Shown in pieces: positions 26,899 to 48,343 of a DNA stretch of 50,194 nucleotides (positions within the stretch are counted from its first letter, which is position 1; each line of letters opens with the position of its first letter). The notes beneath the pieces are model-generated. The model was not told where the DNA came from and made no database searches. It saw only the letters and a program-made list of their open reading frames with translations. The position numbers and the translations under genes are program-made. The DNA is from Betaproteobacteria bacterium (GTDB lineage Bacteria; Pseudomonadota; Gammaproteobacteria; Burkholderiales; SG8-41): assembly GCA_016202605.1 (NCBI GenBank), contig JACQOJ010000034.1, positions 1-50,194 of the forward strand, read 5' to 3'.

Positions 26899-26979
26899 AT
26901 AGACGGGATTTACAGGATTTACGAGATTGGATCAAAGGCACCAAACACAATCCTGTTAATCGTGTAAATCCTGTCTATT
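26899..26979. repeat. Degenerate inverted-repeat element (GATTTACAGGATT family)
   Basis: The left arm (about 26899-26930, AATAGACGGGATTTACAGG...) and the reverse complement of the right arm (about 26948-26979, AATAGACAGGATTTACACG...) match at roughly 26 of 32 positions. They enclose an AT-rich loop of about 17 nt. The arms contain internal GATT(T/A)ACAGGATT-like direct repeats, a motif I know as dispersed in many environmental bacterial genomes. It overlaps the last few bases of the transglutaminase gene and ends 20 bp before tag. It would fold into a long mRNA hairpin. Confidence 0.75.
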
Positions 26980-29900
26980 GAATTTGCTGCTCCGGCGACC
27001 AGCGCAGATCGAGCGTCAGCGGGAAACTCGGGTTCATAAGCTCAGGCTGGACCGTCATCGGCCCGGGCGTGTGGCCGTGGTCCCAGAAGCGGGCCGTGCG
27101 TCGCGCTTCGGCTTCGCCCGCATTCACGGGAACGGCGTCGTAATCGCGACCGCCGGGATGCGAGACATGGTAAGTGCAGCCGCCGATCGATCGCCCGCTC
27201 CAGGTGTCCACGATATCGAAGACGAGCGGCGCATGCACACCGATGGTGGGGTGAAGGGCCGAAGGCGGATTGCGGGCCCGGAAGCGCACTCCGGCGACGA
27301 ATTCGCCCGGAATTCCCGTGGGGTGCAGCGGCAGCGCGCGGCCATTGCAGGCGATGACGTAGCGCGCTGCGGTGAGTCCGTTCACATGCACCTGCAGGCG
27401 CTCGACGGAAGAGTCCACGTAACGGGCCGTGCCGCCGCTGCTCATCTCCTCTCCGAGAACGTGCCACGGCTCCAGCGCTTGGCGCAGTTCGACCCGGATG
27501 TTCTCGTAGACGACCGTGCCGTAGCGCGGAAAACGAAACTCGATGAAAGGCGCGAACCACGAGGAATCGAACGCATGGCCCGCCCTTCGCAGATCCCTTC
27601 CCACGTCATTAATGTCCGCTTCGACGAAGTGCGGCAGCATGAATCGATCGTGCAGCTGCGTGCCCCAGCGGATGAGTCCTCCTTCGTACGGCGTCTTCCA
27701 GAACCGCGCGACGAGGGCACGCAGCAAAAGCATCTGCACGAGGCTCATCCGCGGGTGCGGCGGCATCTCGAAAGCGCGGAATTCGAGCAGGCCGAGCCGT
27801 CCGGCAGGGCCGTCGGGCGAATAGAGCTTGTCGATGCAGAATTCCGCGCGGTGCGTGTTGCCGGTGAGGTCCACGAGCAGGTTTCTCAGCAGGCGATCGA
27901 CGAGCCAGGGCGTCAGCGATTCTGCGCCCGCTTTCTGCCTCAGGGCCATCTGCTGGAAGGCGATCTCGAGTTCGTACAGGGCGTCGTCGCGTGCCTCGTC
28001 CACACGCGGGGCCTGGCTGGTCGGGCCGATAAACGTTCCCGAGAACAGGTACGACAGCGCCGGATGGTTCTGCCAGTACGTGATCAGGCTCCTCAGCAGA
28101 TCGGGACGCCGCAGCAGGGGGCTGTCCGCCGGCGTAGGGCCACCGAGCGTGACATGGTTGCCGCCACCGGTACCGGTGTGCCGTCCATCGAGCGTGAACT
28201 TCTCGGCGACGAGCCGGTTCGTCCGTGCTTCTTCATAGAGTGCGAAGGTATTTTGCGTCAATTCTTCCCAGCTCGATGCCGGGTGGATGTTGACCTCGAT
28301 TACGCCGGGATCAGGCGTGACGTTCAGAACCCTGAGCCGTGGGTCGAAAGGCGGTGCGTAGCCCTCCAGCCGGACGCGCACGCCGAGTTCTTCGGTCGCG
28401 CGTTCCACGACGGCCGCCAGATCGAGGAAATCCTCCGCCCGCTGCAGCGGCGGGATGAATACGTGGAGACGGCCGTCGCGGACTTCCACGCACAGCGCCG
28501 TGCGCACCACTTCGCGCGGTGTCGTGTGGCCGGGCTTCACGCGCGCATGGCGCTTTTTTTCCGCGACGGTATGCGCATCGTGCAGATCGCCCCGCTCGTC
28601 GAACGGATCGCGAGCGAACCCGGGTTCCATCTCCTCCGGAAGCAGTTCGGGCAGCGACGCGAGCGGCAGACGGTCGCCCATTGGCGCATCGCCGGGCAGA
28701 AGAAACAGGCGCCCGCGCCTGAGCGGCCAAGGCGTGCTTTCCCATGTCGTTTCCGCCGCGGACTGACCGCCGGGTTGGCGCGCGCACAGCGGCAAGACGA
28801 CGCCTCGCGGTTTTTCCAGGCCGCGTTCCAGCATGCGCGCAAGACGGGCGCGTTCGGTATCGGTCCTGAGCGGTGTGCGCGCCGGATCGACGTTGACCGG
28901 AAGACGGCCCTCGGCTTGCAGCAGGGGCAGAGGATCCTCGTAGGCTTCGATGGGATAACCGCGATCGAATCCAAGTGCTTCCGCAATACGCTGCGCCAGG
29001 CGCCGTGCATCGGCTGGCGTCGCATGGTCGGGCGTCGACTCGCGGGCGATCAGCGCGGGATCGCGCCACACCGGTTTCCCGTCCAGTCTCCAGAAGACGC
29101 CGAGCGCCCAACGCGGCAGAGGCTCTCCCGGGTACCACTTGCCCTGACCGTAAAAGACGAGCCCGCCCGGCGCAAACCGGTCCCGGAGTCGCCAGGCGAG
29201 TTGCTCGGCGAGCTTCCATTTTCCGGGAGAGAGGGCAGCCGTATTCCACTCGGGACTGTTCGATTCGTCGCCGGCAACGAAGGTGGGTTCGCCGCCCTGG
29301 GTAAGGCGTACGTCGCCGGCCTTGAATTCGGCATCCACCGCGTGGGCCAAGTCGTCGATCGCCTGCCATTGGCTCTCGGTGTAGGGTCTGGTGACGCGCG
29401 GATCCTCGTGAATACGCGCGACCGACATCTCGATCGAGAACTGCGGCTCGCTCGGGTCGACCGCCCCGGTGACGGGCGCCGCGCCGGCCGGTGAGGGCGT
29501 ACAGGCAAGAGGGATGTGGCCTTCCCCCGCGAGCAGTCCCGACGTGGGATCGAGGCCGATCCAACCGGCGCCCGGGATGTAGGCCTCGGTCCACGCATGC
29601 AGATCGGTGAAATCACGCTCCGGGCCGAGGGGCCCGTCGAGCGGCCTGATATCGGGTGCCAGCTGGACGAGATACCCGGATACGAAGCGCGCGGCGAGCC
29701 CGAAATGGCGCAGGATCTGGGTGAGCAGCCAGGCACTGTCGCGGCAGGAGCCGCTGCCTGCGGCGAGTGTCTGCTCGCAGGTTTGCACGCCCGGTTCCAC
29801 CCTCACGAGGTACCCGATGTCCTGCCGCAGCCGACGGTTCGTGTCCACCAGAAAATTTATGGTGTCGCCTTCCCTGAAGCCCTTGCGCCGGTCCTCAATC

Positions 29901-30289
29901 CAGCGCATGAGCAGCGGACCGTGTTCGTCGAGCGCGAGGAAAGGCGCGAGGTCCCGGGCGAGATCCGCGCGGTAGGCGAAGGGAAAGCGCTCGGCGTGGC
30001 TTTCCAAGAAGAAATCGAAGGGGTTGATCACCGCCATATCCGCAATGAGATCGACCGTAATCGTGAACTCGGTCGTTTTCCCGGGAAATACGAAGCGCGC
30101 GATATGGTTGCCGAAAGGATCCTGCTGCCAGTTGACGAAATGCTTTTCCGGCGTGACGTTGAGCGAATAGCCCAAAATGGATGTGCGGCAGTGGGGCGCC
30201 GGACGCAGACGGATCTCCTGAGGGGAGAGCGCTACCGGCCGATCGTAGCGATAGCGCGTCCGGTGATGAAGGGCAACCTGGACGCTCAC
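26975..30289 (-). CDS. Large transglutaminase-like protein with DUF2126 domain
   Basis: A 1104-residue cytoplasmic protein. The N-terminal bacterial transglutaminase-like region and thiol-protease fold have a visible catalytic triad: Cys182 (AAGSGSCRDSAW), His231 (DLHAWTEAY) and Asp247 (GLDPTSG). The remaining two thirds (about 300-1100) is the DUF2126 region, with GEPTFVAGDE, KWYPGEPLPRWALG, GGGNHVTLGG and LLEFRAFEMPPHPRMSL. Such proteins are known companions of Anbu, alpha-E and circularly permuted ATP-grasp proteins, and have been proposed to cut or re-form amide bonds of a modified peptide. The start ATG at 30289 is 39 bp after the Anbu stop, so it is probably the last gene of that operon. 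The exact reaction is unknown. Confidence 0.93.
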   Translation of the reverse strand: MSVQVALHHRTRYRYDRPVALSPQEIRLRPAPHCRTSILGYSLNVTPEKHFVNWQQDPFGNHIARFVFPGKTTEFTITVDLIADMAVINPFDFFLESHAERFPFAYRADLARDLAPFLALDEHGPLLMRWIEDRRKGFREGDTINFLVDTNRRLRQDIGYLVRVEPGVQTCEQTLAAGSGSCRDSAWLLTQILRHFGLAARFVSGYLVQLAPDIRPLDGPLGPERDFTDLHAWTEAYIPGAGWIGLDPTSGLLAGEGHIPLACTPSPAGAAPVTGAVDPSEPQFSIEMSVARIHEDPRVTRPYTESQWQAIDDLAHAVDAEFKAGDVRLTQGGEPTFVAGDESNSPEWNTAALSPGKWKLAEQLAWRLRDRFAPGGLVFYGQGKWYPGEPLPRWALGVFWRLDGKPVWRDPALIARESTPDHATPADARRLAQRIAEALGFDRGYPIEAYEDPLPLLQAEGRLPVNVDPARTPLRTDTERARLARMLERGLEKPRGVVLPLCARQPGGQSAAETTWESTPWPLRRGRLFLLPGDAPMGDRLPLASLPELLPEEMEPGFARDPFDERGDLHDAHTVAEKKRHARVKPGHTTPREVVRTALCVEVRDGRLHVFIPPLQRAEDFLDLAAVVERATEELGVRVRLEGYAPPFDPRLRVLNVTPDPGVIEVNIHPASSWEELTQNTFALYEEARTNRLVAEKFTLDGRHTGTGGGNHVTLGGPTPADSPLLRRPDLLRSLITYWQNHPALSYLFSGTFIGPTSQAPRVDEARDDALYELEIAFQQMALRQKAGAESLTPWLVDRLLRNLLVDLTGNTHRAEFCIDKLYSPDGPAGRLGLLEFRAFEMPPHPRMSLVQMLLLRALVARFWKTPYEGGLIRWGTQLHDRFMLPHFVEADINDVGRDLRRAGHAFDSSWFAPFIEFRFPRYGTVVYENIRVELRQALEPWHVLGEEMSSGGTARYVDSSVERLQVHVNGLTAARYVIACNGRALPLHPTGIPGEFVAGVRFRARNPPSALHPTIGVHAPLVFDIVDTWSGRSIGGCTYHVSHPGGRDYDAVPVNAGEAEARRTARFWDHGHTPGPMTVQPELMNPSFPLTLDLRWSPEQQIQ

Positions 30290-30328: not shown

Positions 30329-31075
30329 TTAGAACCGCGCCCCGACATCCCACTCGGGGTTCGGCAGTTCCGCGAACACCTTGCGCAGCCCCTCGCCCCA
30401 TTGCTGGTGGATCATGGTGAAGTAGGGGTCCGCTTCCTCGATCCGGCGCTGCATGTCTATCTTCAGGCTGTCGCGGGCGTAGATCAGGAGATCGATCGGC
30501 AGCCCCACCGAGATGTTGCTGCGCATCGTGGAGTCGAACGACACGAGAATGCACTTGGTCGCTTCGAGAATACCGGTGTTGCATTTGATCACGCGATCGA
30601 TCACGGGCTTGCCGTACTTGCTCTCCCCGATCTGGAAGTAGGGGGTATCGCGCGTCGCTTCGATGAAGTTGCCTTCGCTGTAGATGTTGAACAGGCGCTG
30701 CCGCTCGCCACTGATCTGGCCCCCGACGAGGAAGGAAGCGCTCGCGTCGACCTTGCTCTGTTCCAGGTACGGTCCGTCCCGGCGCCTCACCTCACGCAGG
30801 GTGTCGCCCACCAGTTCGGCGACCTCGATCATCGAAGTGAGATTCATGATGGTCTTCTTCGAATCCGGATGGCGCGCGTGGTGGTCGAGAATGTTGACCA
30901 CGCTTTGCGTGATCGACAGGTTGCCGGAGGAGAGGATCACGATGATGCGATCGTCCTCGTCCGCGAAAATGCGCATCTTGCGAAAGCTCGACACGTGGTC
31001 GACCCCGGCCGAGGTGCGCGAATCGGATGCGAACACCATGCCGGCGTCCAGCACTACGGCAACACAGTAGGTCAT
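30329..31075 (-). CDS. Anbu, bacterial proteasome-like peptidase
   Basis: An N-terminal nucleophile hydrolase of the Anbu (bacterial proteasome homologue) family, 248 aa. Removing Met1 exposes the catalytic Thr (MTYCVAVVLDAG). The companion residues Asp18 (FASDSRTSAG) and Lys33 (SFRKMRIF) are in the proteasome beta-subunit pattern. Unlike HslV, no HslU-type unfoldase is encoded nearby, and Anbu forms open helical or ring-like assemblies in studied cases. The protein or peptide it cuts is not known. It lies 75 bp after the alpha-E gene and 39 bp before the transglutaminase gene on the same strand. Confidence 0.95.
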   Translation of the reverse strand: MTYCVAVVLDAGMVFASDSRTSAGVDHVSSFRKMRIFADEDDRIIVILSSGNLSITQSVVNILDHHARHPDSKKTIMNLTSMIEVAELVGDTLREVRRRDGPYLEQSKVDASASFLVGGQISGERQRLFNIYSEGNFIEATRDTPYFQIGESKYGKPVIDRVIKCNTGILEATKCILVSFDSTMRSNISVGLPIDLLIYARDSLKIDMQRRIEEADPYFTMIHQQWGEGLRKVFAELPNPEWDVGARF

Positions 31076-31150: not shown

Positions 31151-32140
31151 TCAACGTCGCGCGGTCGCGGCCTGCTGCTGAGGATACACCGGCACCAGAA
31201 AATGCCTGTTGATCTCGTCGTTCAGCGCGCCCAGTTTTTCCAGAAAGCCCATGAGGTACTCGTGCAGTCCGAGGCTGATGATCTGTTCGGTGCGCCCGTA
31301 GTACAGTTGTGCGTGCAGTTCTCCGGCCAGGCGCTCGACCTCCCGGGAAGAGGATTCGCAAATGTCGCGCAGGATTTCGTAGATCTCGTTCATGCAGGCA
31401 TGCAGCGAGCGCGGCACGTCGTCGCGCAGGATGAGCAGTTCCGCGACGCGCCTGGGCATGATCACGTCGCGGTACACCTTGCGGTAGGCGTCGAAGGCGC
31501 TCAGCGACCTCAGCAGCGCGCCCCACTGGTAGTAGTCAACGGCCCCGCCGACGTCGGCCACGCTCGGCAGCAGCGTGTGATATTTCACGTCCAGCAGGCG
31601 CGCCGTGTTGTCGGCGCGCTCGATAAAGGTGCCGAGGCGGGTGAAACTGTAACCCTCGTCACGAAGTGATGTGCCGAACGTGACGCCGCGGAACTGATGG
31701 GAGCGCATTTTCACCCAGTCGAAGAACTCGCTGAGGCCCCCGGTGCGGATGCCCGCGTAGTCGCGGTTGCGCAGTTCCAGCCAGAACGCGTTAATGTCTT
31801 CGTACATTTCCGAGGTAATCGCACCCCGCACGACGCGCGCATTCTCCCGCGCCGTGTGGATGCAGGCGTAGATGCTCGACGGGTTCGCCGCGTCGAACAC
31901 CATGAATCGCAGCACGTCGTCCGGCCCGAGGGCTCCCGGGTAGCGTTCGTAATAGGCGGTCGCGAGACCGTTGATGACCAGCGGCAGCGCCCACGGCTCG
32001 GCCCATGACTGTCCGGGTTCGAGAATGCGGTAAGGGAGCAGCGACATGCGGTAGGTGACATCGAGCAGGCGCGCGGTGTTTTCCGCGCGCTCGATGTGGC
32101 GCGACATCCAGAACAGGTTATTGGCGACGCGGCTCAGCAT
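31151..32140 (-). CDS. Alpha-E domain protein (DUF403)
   Basis: A 329-residue all-helical alpha-E domain protein, recognised by its start MLSRVANNLFWMSRHIERAE followed by NTARLLDVTY, an internal echo of the same pattern (TFIERADNTARLLDVKYH) and SAFDAYRKVYRDVIMPRRVAE. These proteins are always found beside, or fused to, circularly permuted ATP-grasp enzymes and are presumed to act as their partner or as part of the peptide-modifying complex. The start ATG at 32140 is 13 bp after the ATP-grasp stop, which points to one transcript. No catalytic residues can be assigned. Confidence 0.93.
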   Translation of the reverse strand: MLSRVANNLFWMSRHIERAENTARLLDVTYRMSLLPYRILEPGQSWAEPWALPLVINGLATAYYERYPGALGPDDVLRFMVFDAANPSSIYACIHTARENARVVRGAITSEMYEDINAFWLELRNRDYAGIRTGGLSEFFDWVKMRSHQFRGVTFGTSLRDEGYSFTRLGTFIERADNTARLLDVKYHTLLPSVADVGGAVDYYQWGALLRSLSAFDAYRKVYRDVIMPRRVAELLILRDDVPRSLHACMNEIYEILRDICESSSREVERLAGELHAQLYYGRTEQIISLGLHEYLMGFLEKLGALNDEINRHFLVPVYPQQQAATARR

Positions 32141-32153
32141 TGCAAAGCAAGGA

Positions 32154-33605
32154 TCAGTCTTCGAGCACCCACGTGTCCTTGGTCCCTCCGCCCTGCGAGG
32201 AGTTGACTACGAGAGACCCCTCCCGCAGCGCCACGCGGGTGAGCCCGCCCGGCACCAGGGTCACCGTCTTGCCGCTCAACACGTAAGGCCTCAGGTCGAC
32301 ATGGCGCGGCGCGATGGCCGAGCCGCAAAAGGTGGGGCAGGTCGAAAGGGCGAGCGTCGGTTGGGCGATGTAATTGGCCGGGTTGCCCAGCACGCGCTCG
32401 CGAAAAGCGGCGCGCTCGTCCCGGGTCGCGGCGGGCCCGACCAGCATGCCATAGCCCCCGGAGCCCTGAACTTCCTTCACCACCAGTTCGTGGAGATGAT
32501 CGAGCACATACTTGAGGTCCTCCGGCTTCGAGAGGCGGTAAGTCGGCACGTTGGCGAGCATCGGCTTTTCGCCCAGGTAGAACGCGATCATGTCGGGCAC
32601 GTACGTGTAGATCGATTTGTCGTCCGCAATCCCGGTGCCGATCGCGTTGGCGAGCGTCACGTTTCCGGCCCGGTATGCCGAGAACAACCCGGCGACCCCG
32701 AGAACCGAGTCCGGACGGAATGCGAGCGGGTCGAGGAAATCATCGTCGATGCGGCGGTAGATCACGTCCACGCGCTGCGGGCCCGAGGTGGTGCGCATGA
32801 AGACCGCGTCCTGCGCGACGAAGAGGTCCTGGCCTTCCACCAGCTCGACGCCCATCTGCTGCGCGAGGAACGCGTGCTCGAAATAGGCGCTGTTGTACGG
32901 GCCGGGCGTCAGCACCGCGACCGTGGGATTCGTTACGCCGGGAGGCGCCACCGCGCGGAGGTTATCGAGCAGCACGTCGGTGTAGTGGTCGATCGGCGCC
33001 ACAGCCATGCGCGAGAACAGTTCGGGAAACAGCCGCATCATCATCTTGCGGTTTTCGAGCATGTACGACACCCCGGAGGGCGTGCGCAGATTGTCCTCGA
33101 GCACAAAGAACGCGTCCTGGCCGGTTTTGACGATGTCGATGCCGGCGATGTGGATGTAGACGTCGCCCGGCACGTCGAACCCGCGCATTTCCGGACGGTA
33201 GAGCCTGTTTGCGAAGATGTGCTGTTCCGGGATCAGCCCGGCTCGGAGTATCTCCTGGTCGTGGTAGATATCCTTGAGAAAGGCGTTGAGGGCCCGCACC
33301 CGCTGGCAGGTGCCGTCATAGATGATCTTCCATGCATCGGGACGCAGGATGCGTGGAATGATGTCGAAGGGAATGGAGCGTTCGACGCCGGTCTCGTCCC
33401 CGTACACCGCGAACGTGATGCCGAGGCGGGCGTAAAGAATATCGGCCTCGCGTTGCTTTTGCAGCAAATACTCGGGAGGCTTGTCCGCCAGCCATTCCGC
33501 ATACGCCGCGTAATGCGGGTGGACCGCGCCGGCCTCGTCATACATTTCGTTGTAGACCGTGGATGGCCGGACGCCATCGTCTCGCTTTGCGGCCGGATTG
33601 ATCAT
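32154..33605 (-). CDS. Circularly permuted ATP-grasp type 2 protein (DUF404/DUF407)
   Basis: A predicted ATP-dependent amide-bond-forming ligase of the circularly permuted ATP-grasp group, 483 aa. Family landmarks are IPFDIIPRIL, RVRALNAFLKDIYHDQEIL, DIVKTGQDAFFVLEDNLRTP, PGPYNSAYFEHAFLA and the nucleotide-loop-like VVKEVQGSGGYGMLVG, ending with a typical SSQGGGTKDTWVL. The preferred start is ATG at 33605, preceded by AAGGG; upstream in-frame Mets lie inside the leader hairpin. It is the first gene of the four-gene Anbu cluster. A sigma-54-type promoter lies 66-81 bp before the start. Substrate unknown. Confidence 0.93.
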   Translation of the reverse strand: MINPAAKRDDGVRPSTVYNEMYDEAGAVHPHYAAYAEWLADKPPEYLLQKQREADILYARLGITFAVYGDETGVERSIPFDIIPRILRPDAWKIIYDGTCQRVRALNAFLKDIYHDQEILRAGLIPEQHIFANRLYRPEMRGFDVPGDVYIHIAGIDIVKTGQDAFFVLEDNLRTPSGVSYMLENRKMMMRLFPELFSRMAVAPIDHYTDVLLDNLRAVAPPGVTNPTVAVLTPGPYNSAYFEHAFLAQQMGVELVEGQDLFVAQDAVFMRTTSGPQRVDVIYRRIDDDFLDPLAFRPDSVLGVAGLFSAYRAGNVTLANAIGTGIADDKSIYTYVPDMIAFYLGEKPMLANVPTYRLSKPEDLKYVLDHLHELVVKEVQGSGGYGMLVGPAATRDERAAFRERVLGNPANYIAQPTLALSTCPTFCGSAIAPRHVDLRPYVLSGKTVTLVPGGLTRVALREGSLVVNSSQGGGTKDTWVLED

Positions 33606-33624
33606 GGTATCCCTTAGAGCGCCC

Positions 33625-33658
33625 AACATGATGAACCGCACACGTGGTTCATTATGTT
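33625..33658 (-). promoter_or_regulatory. Leader hairpin or operator upstream of the Anbu cluster
   Basis: An inverted repeat of 13-bp arms, AACATGATGAACC and GGTTCATTATGTT, with one mismatch and an 8-nt centre. If transcription starts about 12 bp after the -12 element (near 33661), this is the extreme 5' end of the mRNA, ending about 10 nt before the AAGGG ribosome binding site. It could equally be a protein-binding operator. Confidence 0.6.
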
Positions 33659-33670
33659 AGGCACTCTTAA

Positions 33671-33686
33671 AGCAACCGGTGTGCCA
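33671..33686 (-). promoter_or_regulatory. Sigma-54 (RpoN) -24/-12 promoter for the Anbu cluster
   Basis: On the minus strand the sequence TGGCAC-ACCGG-TTGCT matches the sigma-54 consensus TGGCAC-N5-TTGCW at every conserved base, with the required 10 bp between the GG and GC dinucleotides. It faces the ATP-grasp gene. An activator site was not identified. Confidence 0.7.
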
Positions 33687-33984
33687 TCCATCGCGACTCG
33701 GATTGCTGCAGATGGTAATGCTCTGCTCCGGAGACGGTTTTGTCAAAAAAGCGCGTGTGTTTCACGATTGTCAGGTATCGCTCCCGATCCGATGCTTGCG
33801 CCGGTCCGGGAAATGAATGAACAATATGCCCAAAGCCGGTGCGCCACGAGAATCGGAGTGGGGGCGCCGGAGCAGGCGGACAGGTTCATGCCGCACGGCA
33901 CGGCGCACCGGAACTCCGACGGTGAAGGCTGTTCTGTACAAGGGGTTTTTCTCCGCGGAATCCGCGACTGGTGACGGGAACCTC

Positions 33985-36177
33985 GTGAAGGCAACGCAAC
34001 TGCAACTGGTCAGGGTCGAAGATGCCGCGGTGCAAGGCTGGCTTGAGAACGCGGCACAGCACGTGGCGCCGGCGGAGATTGCCGGCCTGCGCCGGGCGCT
34101 CGAATTCGTCGTGCCGCTTTACGCGGGACGGCGGCTGGCCGGCGGCGAGCATGTCCTCGATCGCACGCTTGCGGTTGCAGGCATACTCATCGAACTGAAG
34201 CTCGACGCCGAAACCCTGACCGCAGCGCTCCTGTTCCGGTGCCTCGATTGCACTCCGGATGCCGCCGAGACAGTGCGGACGCGATTCGGCGGCGCGGTTG
34301 CGGATCTCGCGGAAGGGGTGGTGCGCATGGAGGAGATCGGTGCGCTTTCCAGCCGTCGTGCGGCGGCGCAGAAGCCGGAACGGCAGGCCGCGCAACTCGA
34401 AGCCTTGCGCAAGATGCTGCTCGCCATGGTGCAGGATGTACGGGTGGTGCTGATCAAGCTGGCTGACCACACGCAGGAACTGCGCTACGTCATCCGCGGC
34501 GAGAACGAGGCCCTGAGAAGGGAGGCGGCGGAAATCACGCGTGACATCTTCGCCCCGCTTGCCAACCGTCTGGGGGTATGGCAGCTCAAGTGGGAGCTCG
34601 AGGACCTGGCGTTCCGCGTCCTGGAACCGGAGACCTATAAACGCATTGCGCGGCTGATTGACGAGAAGCGGAGCGACCGCGAGCGCTACATCGAGGGGGT
34701 GATCGCCGTCATCAAAGGCGAATTGGCACGTGCCGGTATTGCCGCGGAGGTCACTGGCCGTCCCAAGCATATCTTCAGTATTTATAAGAAGATGAAAGGA
34801 AAAGGACTTGATTTTGAAGCGCTTTACGATGTGAGAGCGGTCCGCATTCTGGTTGAGGACGTGAAGGATTGCTATGCGGCACTGGGTCTCGTGCATCACG
34901 TCTGGTCGCCGATTCCAAAAGAATTCGACGACTACATCGCGCGTCCCAAAACCAACAACTACCGGTCGCTGCACACGGCGGTCATCGGCCCCGAAGGCAA
35001 GGCGGTCGAGATCCAGATCCGGACCCATGAAATGCACCAGAACTCCGAGCTCGGGGTTGCCGCCCACTGGCGCTACAAGGAGGGTTCGCGTCACGACAAG
35101 GGTTATGACGAAAAAATCGCGTGGCTGCGGCAGATCCTCGAATGGAAGGACGAAGTAAGCGACGCAACCGAGCTGGCCGAGCAGTTCAAGACCGGGCTGT
35201 TCGAGGATACCGTCTACGTCCTGACGCCGCAGGGCAAGGTCATCGACCTGCCAAAGGGCGCCACCCCCATCGATTTTGCCTACCACGTTCATACCGAACT
35301 CGGGCATCACTGCCGCGGCGCAAAAGTCGACGGGGTCATGGTTCCGCTCAATACGCCGCTCGCCAACGGTCAGCAGGTGGAGATTCTCGCTGCGAAGCAG
35401 GGCGGACCCAGCCGCGACTGGCTGAACCCGCAACTGGGCTATATCCGCAGCCACGGCGCGCGCAACAAGATCCGCCAGTGGTTCAAACGTCAGAATTACG
35501 AGACCGCCGTGACGCAGGGGCGGGCGCAACTCGACCGGGAATTGCAGCGCCACGGCATGACGGGACTCAACCTCGACAAACTTTCAGGGGAATTCGGTTA
35601 CTCGAGGCTCAACGATTTTCTGGTGGCCGTGGGACGCGGCGAGATCGGGCCCAGACAACTGCAGGAAGCGTTGCGTGGCGATGAGCCGCGGCCGCCCCAG
35701 GCGGAAGAAGAACAGGTCATCACGCGCAAGCCACGCGCCAGGACGCAGGGGAGCGTGCTGGTCGTCGGTGTCGACAAGCTGCTCACCGTGCCGGCCAAGT
35801 GCTGCAAGCCCGCCCCCCCTGATCCGATCGTGGGCTTCGTCACCCGCGGGCGAGGTGTCACCGTGCACCGTAAGACTTGCGCCAACACGAAGCGTCTCGA
35901 TCCCGCGCGATGCGTCAGCGCTGAATGGGGTGCGGCGGAAGGGGCGACGTTTCCCGTGGATATCGAAGTCGAGGCGGTGGACAGGACGGGTTTGCTGCGC
36001 GACATCTCGGACGTGCTGTCACGGGATCGCATCAACGTGACCGCGACCAATTCGTTGAGCAGCGAGCTCGCGGCACGCATGCGTTTTACCGTGGAAGTCA
36101 GCAATCTCGACCAGCTGCACCGCGTGCTGGCGATGATCAGGGAGGTGCGCGGTGTCGTGCGGGCCGCGCGCCGCTGA
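33985..36177 (+). CDS. relA: (p)ppGpp synthetase RelA (GTP pyrophosphokinase)
   Basis: The ribosome-associated stringent-response synthetase. The layout is a degenerate HD domain, a synthetase domain (GRPKHIFSIYKKM, LYDVRAVRILV, EIQIRTHEMHQNSELGVAAHW), TGS (VYVLTPQGKVIDLPKGATPIDFAYHVH), the Cys-containing region and a C-terminal ACT/RRM domain (VDRTGLLRDISDVL). The HD pair needed for hydrolysis is missing (AALLFRCLD in place of AALLHDVIED). The synthetase motif is EFDD, the RelA type rather than the SpoT RFKD. It is therefore a synthetase-only RelA. GTG at 33985 gives 730 aa; in-frame GTG at 33922 and ATG at 33817 are alternatives. Confidence 0.95.
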   Translation: MKATQLQLVRVEDAAVQGWLENAAQHVAPAEIAGLRRALEFVVPLYAGRRLAGGEHVLDRTLAVAGILIELKLDAETLTAALLFRCLDCTPDAAETVRTRFGGAVADLAEGVVRMEEIGALSSRRAAAQKPERQAAQLEALRKMLLAMVQDVRVVLIKLADHTQELRYVIRGENEALRREAAEITRDIFAPLANRLGVWQLKWELEDLAFRVLEPETYKRIARLIDEKRSDRERYIEGVIAVIKGELARAGIAAEVTGRPKHIFSIYKKMKGKGLDFEALYDVRAVRILVEDVKDCYAALGLVHHVWSPIPKEFDDYIARPKTNNYRSLHTAVIGPEGKAVEIQIRTHEMHQNSELGVAAHWRYKEGSRHDKGYDEKIAWLRQILEWKDEVSDATELAEQFKTGLFEDTVYVLTPQGKVIDLPKGATPIDFAYHVHTELGHHCRGAKVDGVMVPLNTPLANGQQVEILAAKQGGPSRDWLNPQLGYIRSHGARNKIRQWFKRQNYETAVTQGRAQLDRELQRHGMTGLNLDKLSGEFGYSRLNDFLVAVGRGEIGPRQLQEALRGDEPRPPQAEEEQVITRKPRARTQGSVLVVGVDKLLTVPAKCCKPAPPDPIVGFVTRGRGVTVHRKTCANTKRLDPARCVSAEWGAAEGATFPVDIEVEAVDRTGLLRDISDVLSRDRINVTATNSLSSELAARMRFTVEVSNLDQLHRVLAMIREVRGVVRAARR

Positions 36178-48037: not shown

Positions 48038-48343
48038 ATGACTTTAACTAAGGCCGAACTCGCAGACCTTCTTTTCGAAAAAGTGGGGTTCAACAAGCGC
48101 GAAGCCAAGGACATGGTCGAGTCTTTTTTCGAGGAGGTGCGGCTCGCGCTGGAAAATGGAAAGGGCGTGAAACTCTCCGGTTTCGGCAACTTCCAGTTGC
48201 GCAACAAGCCGCAGCGCCCGGGCAGGAATCCCAAGACCGGTGAGGAAATTCCGATTACCGCGCGTCGTGTCGTGACGTTCCATGCATCGCAGAAACTGAA
48301 GGCGATGGTGGAACAGAACTATCATGGAAGCGACCAGCAGTAG
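48038..48343 (+). CDS. ihfA: Integration host factor alpha subunit
   Basis: A DNA-bending architectural protein of the HU/IHF family, 101 aa. Signature: [24 protein letters not shown], then [31 protein letters not shown] with the minor-groove-inserting Pro in GRNPKTGE. The ATG at 48038 is preceded by AAAGGGGAAGAG, which decides against the earlier in-frame TTG. IHF commonly assists sigma-54 promoters, such as the one predicted in this window. The 3' end overlaps the merR-type gene by 20 bp. Confidence 0.96.

Follow-up and report, generated by a model that had tools for sequence, protein, structure and literature searches.

Anbu is an ancient relative of the proteasome with an obscure substrate and function, and a locus that carries an Anbu cluster behind a recognizable promoter element raises the question of when, and by which regulator, such a cluster is switched on. 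The DNA analysed here (the window) is a stretch of 50,194 nucleotides from the MAG of a betaproteobacterium. A sequence-only reading of it had noticed a full match to the RpoN -24/-12 consensus on the minus strand in front of the ATP-grasp gene of the cluster, and had proposed that the cluster stays silent until an enhancer-binding protein fires, for example under nitrogen limitation. In our judgement the element, TGGCACACCGGTTGCT, is probably the sigma-54 promoter of the ATP-grasp/Alpha-E/Anbu/transglutaminase operon and is driven by NtrC under nitrogen shortage; we hold the claim at this strength because of the behaviour of a Pseudomonas putida rpoN mutant, which is considered below. The features to which the text refers are as follows.

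26975-30289, minus strand: large transglutaminase/DUF2126 protein (Pfam DUF2126, Bact_transglu_N, Transglut_core)
30329-31075, minus strand: proteasome-type subunit, Anbu by context (Pfam Proteasome, 23.0 bits with a cut-off of 22.4; gene neighbourhood)
31151-32140, minus strand: Alpha-E protein (Pfam Alpha-E)
32154-33605, minus strand: circularly permuted ATP-grasp protein, whose gene heads the cluster (Pfam CP_ATPgrasp_2, CP_ATPgrasp_1; start ATG 33605)
33613-33670, minus strand: dispersed palindromic (MITE-like) element between the -12 and the start codon, with a 91% copy in contig C17
33660, minus strand: predicted transcription start, 12 nt past the C of the -12 GC, placed by the usual spacing
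33671-33686, minus strand: sigma-54 -24/-12 element, an exact match that is conserved in orthologues
33718-33746, minus strand: sigma-70-like pair TTGACA-N17-GAGCAT, a possible basal promoter, present in 4/4 genus loci
33827-33843, minus strand: NtrC-type site CGCACCGGCTTTGGGCA, 157 bp upstream of the -24
33817-36177, plus strand: divergent RelA/SpoT-type gene, as listed ORF (Pfam RelA_SpoT, TGS, HD_4)

The Anbu cluster and its -24/-12 element

The ATP-grasp, Alpha-E, proteasome-type and transglutaminase genes occur together here, all on the minus strand and tightly packed, the combination expected of an Anbu operon. The ORF list starts the ATP-grasp gene at GTG 33641, and there is an in-frame ATG at 33605; the ATG is the most likely start because the sequence that follows it can be aligned with the beginning of the gene in the nearest relative (L083). 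Counted from this ATG, the element faces the ATP-grasp gene at 66-81 bp from its start, as the sequence-only reading had stated, and its full fit to the RpoN consensus also holds, since TGGCAC-N5-TTGCT at 33686-33671 has 0 mismatches to TGGCAC-N5-TTGCW and the correct GG-to-GC spacing. The motif strings for sigma-54, NtrC, IHF and sigma-70, together with GAFTGA, are used here in their familiar forms. For the sigma-54 motif and GAFTGA, these forms agree with the available text of two published papers (PMC5491218, PMC10274813). Apart from the element there is no exact match in the window, nor in the whole 2.8-Mb MAG, where the reversed pattern gives 4 matches; thus the string alone is without significance. 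Weak matches are likewise uninformative, since the window contains 24 with up to two mismatches and 20.2 are expected. With the string match per genome within chance, the weight for a real promoter rests on position and conservation. The rpoN gene itself was found in the same MAG (Sigma54_DBD match, E 1.4e-65).

Conservation was examined in the best 80 of at least 592 confirmed relatives (named loci) and in 30 loci of the window's family, counting the window itself. Removal of 2 duplicates from these 110 upstream regions left 108, the window among them and one only 99 nt long, which were scanned in gene orientation for the best site per locus. That site had 0, 1, 2, 3 and 4 mismatches in 26, 42, 27, 10 and 3 loci, respectively, as compared with 0, 1.2, 13.9, 54 and 38 in dinucleotide shuffles (0.8 with five mismatches) and 0, 6, 11, 51 and 38 on the opposite strand (2 with five). 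The scan of orthologous Anbu clusters, which had been proposed as a check of the promoter, therefore finds the element kept with at most one mismatch in 68/108 upstream regions, where 1.2 are expected. Two of three coding controls were near or below chance, and the third, 900-1300 nt past the anchor, exceeded it (1 exact, 5 one-mismatch and 21 two-mismatch sites), for which a conserved coding stretch is the one explanation that we can offer. We judge the element to be real because most orthologues carry it at the same position and facing the same way, and on the sequence comparison this putative promoter is the most conserved feature that we found in these upstream regions.

The GG..GC core is kept in 81 of the 95 sites with up to two mismatches and is missing in 14, of which 12 read TTGA or TTGT at the -12, many under Oxalobacteraceae names (Undibacterium, Duganella, Massilia). 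A conserved TGGCA[C/T]-N5-TTGAT, with TTGAT instead of TTGCT, occurs in nine Burkholderiales loci (L010, L012, L021, L025, L027, L031, L032, L052, L062), several from Oxalobacteraceae-named genera, and these have a -12 box without GC. A second sample was drawn from the phylum, where 155 of the 299 genomes searched had a match; the 89 upstream regions examined contained sites with up to two mismatches in 10/15 regions of the same order (3.1 expected), 20/27 of the same class (4.2 expected) and 20/47 of other classes (5.6 expected). The element is weakened, with 2 mismatches, in L083. In a multiple alignment of five loci the promoters stayed out of register, and the alignment was set aside.

Nitrogen control of orthologous operons and a possible sigma-70 route

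Nitrogen control of this operon type is already in print for Burkholderia cenocepacia and P. putida, and the promoter in the window is a further case. In B. cenocepacia H111, I35_5080-83 are reported as common sigma-54 and NtrC targets, with transcript levels 6.0- to 9.4-fold lower when ntrC is mutated, and expression of the cluster is lost without sigma-54 (PMC5491218). In P. putida, PP_2685-2688 are described, citing Hervas et al., as likely controlled by NtrB/NtrC (PMC7801951). Table 2 of that paper gives 12.6-, 11.0- and 14.7-fold increases of PP_2686, PP_2687 and PP_2688 under nitrogen limitation in the wild type, and 14.2-, 16.0- and 19.6-fold increases in the rpoN mutant; urtA and the urt genes show the same pattern there. 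A PP_2688 promoter fusion was induced 3.7-fold on nitrogen depletion, and the PP_2685 promoter showed no response to nitrogen (PMC8050072). Induction was also seen in PMC3325844, and nitrogen induction of Anbu is mentioned in PMC5666114 and PMC6376114; in the available text of PMC5748707, on P. phymatum, no mention of a transglutaminase was found. The open-licence literature searched yielded neither a paper that brings Anbu and NtrC together nor, among the matches listed, any account of sigma-54 or NtrC sites being conserved at Anbu clusters.

The sequence-only reading had tied the sigma-54 promoter to nitrogen limitation and had expected from it a physiological clue to a pathway with unknown substrate. 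The nitrogen link is supported by the conservation in orthologues and by the published orthologous operons (PMC5491218, PMC7801951, PMC8050072), and the clue is not a new one, nitrogen induction of Anbu being already in print. The published induction when nitrogen is limiting comes from orthologues, and so does the loss of expression in mutants of ntrC and of sigma-54, the latter from a single species; for the window both would follow by analogy.

On the dependence on rpoN the orthologues disagree, with a yes from B. cenocepacia and a no from P. putida, and the latter result argues against sole reliance on sigma-54 in P. putida. It could be, albeit at rather low probability, that NtrC regulates the cluster largely via a sigma-70 promoter, either with two routes of which the sigma-54 element is one or with little use made of that element. 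Besides the induction kept in the P. putida rpoN mutant (PMC7801951 Table 2), this reading draws on the sigma-70-like pair, found as TTGACA-N17-nAnCAT 51-63 bp upstream of the -24 in all four genus loci, and on the NtrC boxes that persist in Polynucleobacter-type loci without a sigma-54 element. However, the -24/-12 is better conserved than any other upstream feature found, expression in B. cenocepacia does depend on sigma-54 (PMC5491218), and the sigma-70-like pair is not enriched across 94 loci (at least 9/12 bases in 12, with 7.3 expected) and fell below threshold in a generic promoter scan, which made no call. A sigma-54 promoter is the reading we prefer, and the sigma-70-like pair may give a basal level. 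The claim that the cluster is silent until an activator fires is accordingly worded too strongly, given this pair, the induction in the rpoN mutant, and the description of Anbu as constitutively expressed in moderate amounts (PMC5666114).

The sequence-only reading had also placed ihfA elsewhere in the window, which agrees with a peptide near 48227 that has a signature of the IHF/HU type and that we read as the ihfA product. Across the 94 loci the IHF consensus was matched in full in 5 (0.4 expected) and at 8/9 bases or more in 15 (7.5 expected), the window having 7/9, which gives a weak hint of bending at these promoters.

NtrC-type sites, the probable activator and a palindrome in the predicted leader

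Activator sites were sought 20-220 bp upstream of the -24 in 94 loci (1 of 95 was dropped as too short). NtrC boxes with at least 11 of 14 consensus bases occur in 46/94 loci, where 1.6 are expected and the coding control tops out at 10 bases, and those with at least 12 occur in 16/94 (0.08 expected). With a leave-one-locus-out matrix, an NtrC site at p <=0.01 was found in 55/94 loci with a sigma-54 site and in 2/107 coding controls; the figures for training loci are biased upwards because the consensus had served to choose the sites from which the matrix was built, a set of which the window was never part. When the same-class sample was searched without bias for inverted words, CACC-N5-GGTG, which consists of NtrC half-sites, came first (7/27), followed by CGCA-N9-TGCG and GCAC-N7-GTGC (6/27 each), all with 0.27 expected.

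No convincing NtrC-type palindrome had been noticed in the region by the sequence-only reading, which left the activator open. Neither point stands. The search for an activator site, which had been suggested for 33690-33850, turned up the NtrC-type site CGCACCGGCTTTGGGCA at 33827-33843, with 14.2 bits by a matrix that leaves out the window, a score reached by 23/3000 shuffles (p = 23/3000); the runner-up in the window's upstream region scores 2.6 bits. By plain counting the site has 10 of the 14 consensus bases, which is equalled or beaten in about 11% of shuffles, and we rate this putative site as of moderate quality. Together with the boxes in 46/94 orthologous promoters, it indicates NtrC as the activator.

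The accompaniment of element and box is not uniform. NtrC sites are present in 7/14 loci without the GG..GC core and in 48/80 with it, a difference that is not clear, and of the 13 loci that lack a sigma-54 site, 6 nonetheless carry one for NtrC at p <=0.01, five of these 6 being Polynucleobacter-type. Within the window's family, the loci with poor sigma-54 sites, L083, L094, L095 and L100, showed no NtrC site (p 0.62, 0.67, 0.20 and 0.82), nor did 5/23 loci with a good element at p 0.05. In the other-classes sample of 47 regions, plain NtrC consensus counts are low. The commonest inverted word there is TGCC-N9-GGCA, with the total length of an NtrC box, in 10/47 regions (L181, L182, L188, L190, L194, L195, L198, L199, L206, L219; 0.6 expected).

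A relA/spoT neighbour is present in 15/30 family loci, the window's own included, and in the window, as in those loci, it shares a common control region (33687-33984) with the Anbu cluster, so that, in principle, both genes might make use of the NtrC-type site. The RelA/SpoT gene's true start may be further in than listed, in which case the NtrC-type site would be intergenic. A sigma-54 promoter for relA itself was considered and rejected, the best relA-facing site having 2-4 mismatches in 14 relA loci and as few as 2 in only one.

A working sigma-54 promoter fired by another enhancer-binding protein of the organism is a less probable alternative than the sigma-70 route. No NtrC above the cut-off was found in the MAG, whose assembly is 73.66% complete, and it encodes four clear enhancer-binding proteins of types other than NtrC, presumably GlrR-, PilR-, PrsR- and ZraR-like from a reading of their sequences. 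Against this stand the NtrC-type site in the window, the NtrC boxes in orthologues, and an NtrC protein above the family cut-off in 55/60 family genomes, including all four other genomes of the window's genus that were examined. We infer that the promoter works in the window's organism, that NtrC is present there, and that transcription begins at the predicted start. On this reading, when nitrogen is short, phosphorylated NtrC would bind near 33835, loop the DNA and spend ATP to open the sigma-54 polymerase poised at 33671-33686, and transcription would run from near 33660 through the whole cluster.

The palindrome at 33613-33670 begins one base past the sigma-54 element, and similar copies occur in 25/60 family genomes, the window's own included; some of these are inverted ends 200-400 bp apart, and they are spread over many contigs. 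By our reading of the coordinates, the copies appear to resemble a MITE family. An integron attC, an idea prompted by its end sequences, was rejected on account of the dispersed copies and their MITE-like inverted ends; the palindrome is absent from the list of the repeat search. From the C of the -12 to the start codon there are 67 nt in the window and 14 nt in L083, L084 and L085, for which reason we read the palindrome as an insertion. The fold of 33600-33664 reaches -29.3 kcal/mol (z -4.7, 0/200 shuffles) and that from the predicted start is less unusual (-22.3, z -1.9, 7/200 shuffles); on this model the palindrome would form a hairpin in the 5' UTR. With their ATG 14 nt past the C of the -12, L084 and L085 would make a sigma-54 transcript with almost no leader. 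A chance match or a dead promoter, for example one silenced by the insertion, is very improbable, for although one exact match per 2.8 Mb against 4 for the reversed pattern is unimpressive and the palindrome starts at the very next base, the element is intact, most orthologues have it in the same place and orientation, and a ribosome-binding-like AAGGG precedes ATG 33605.

Polynucleobacter-type genomes and comparison with known systems

Three things are new in this study: how widely the element is conserved, the mobile palindrome that separates the -12 from the start codon, and a natural experiment offered by a genus in which most genomes examined show no rpoN. The last of these, a side result, most merits follow-up. 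Two loci, L056 and L064, are named Polynucleobacter, and genus g14 was placed with them on the basis of 81-87% DNA identity of the ATP-grasp gene. Among 41 Polynucleobacter-type genomes (G209, G261, G351 and G358-G395; loci L236-L238 and L243-L279), rpoN was found in 14 (13/36 of those at least 90% complete) and was not found in 27, and NtrC was found in 40. GAFTGA is the motif that contacts sigma-54. It is present in the NtrC of 6/13 rpoN-positive and 0/27 rpoN-less genomes (Fisher p 0.0004, uncorrected for kinship). Of the 27 rpoN-less NtrCs, 22 have GAFPGA, one each has GAFLGA, GAFQGA and GAFANA, and 2 have an otherwise changed loop; the T-to-P change has been reported to inactivate Bradyrhizobium NifA (PMC4641369). 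Among the matches listed in the open-licence literature, none concerned Polynucleobacter.

The DNA side was examined in nine loci (L050, L055, L056, L060, L064, L137, L142, L144, L288), in all of which a TGCAC-N7-GTGC box, or one close to it, followed by GCACCA, is kept before the ATP-grasp gene and in none of which the -24/-12 is intact, having decayed. The rpoN status was determined for four of them, three being rpoN-less and one (G390) rpoN-positive with GAFPGA. The rpoN-positive arm is thin because an Anbu-cluster gene was located in only 1/5 rpoN-positive genomes sampled by position, again G390. That 7/13 rpoN-positive genomes also have no GAFTGA, G390 being the one of these whose Anbu promoter was looked at, counts against a simple story. 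We regard it as an evenly balanced proposition that the tie of NtrC to Anbu is firmer than that of sigma-54, and that the Polynucleobacter-type NtrC has turned into a sigma-70 regulator by a separate, betaproteobacterial origin; it is the P. putida rpoN-mutant result that brings this reading to that level.

Control of the Anbu operon by nitrogen starvation in many Pseudomonadota, apparently even without sigma-54, would place the job of Anbu within the response to nitrogen scarcity and would tell experimenters when to seek its substrates. The rpoN-less genus, in turn, is a natural setting in which to test how an activator of sigma-54 promoters is put to new use.

Among known systems, I35_5080-83 of B. 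cenocepacia resemble the window in their DUF404/407 (ATP-grasp), DUF403 (Alpha-E) and transglutaminase-like genes and as sigma-54 and NtrC targets; unlike the window, they are given without promoter or binding site, and are not described as Anbu, in the available text of PMC5491218. The PP_2688-PP_2685 operon of P. putida shares with the window its Anbu, transglutaminase, Alpha-E and ATP-grasp genes, but Anbu is last there with the transglutaminase before it, whereas the transglutaminase/DUF2126 gene follows Anbu in the window. The P. putida operon is induced when nitrogen is limiting and has been placed under NtrB/NtrC, its PP_2688 promoter works in a reporter, and its induction persisted in the rpoN mutant (PMC7801951, PMC8050072). 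The Polynucleobacter-type NtrCs, finally, are like those of Rhodobacter capsulatus and Caulobacter, which have no GAFTGA and act with sigma-70 (PMC10274813), a mode of action that would be shared here. In Rhodobacter and Caulobacter, however, the loop is deleted, whereas in the Polynucleobacter-type proteins it mostly carries the single T-to-P change, in a group in which rpoN was not found in 27/41 genomes.
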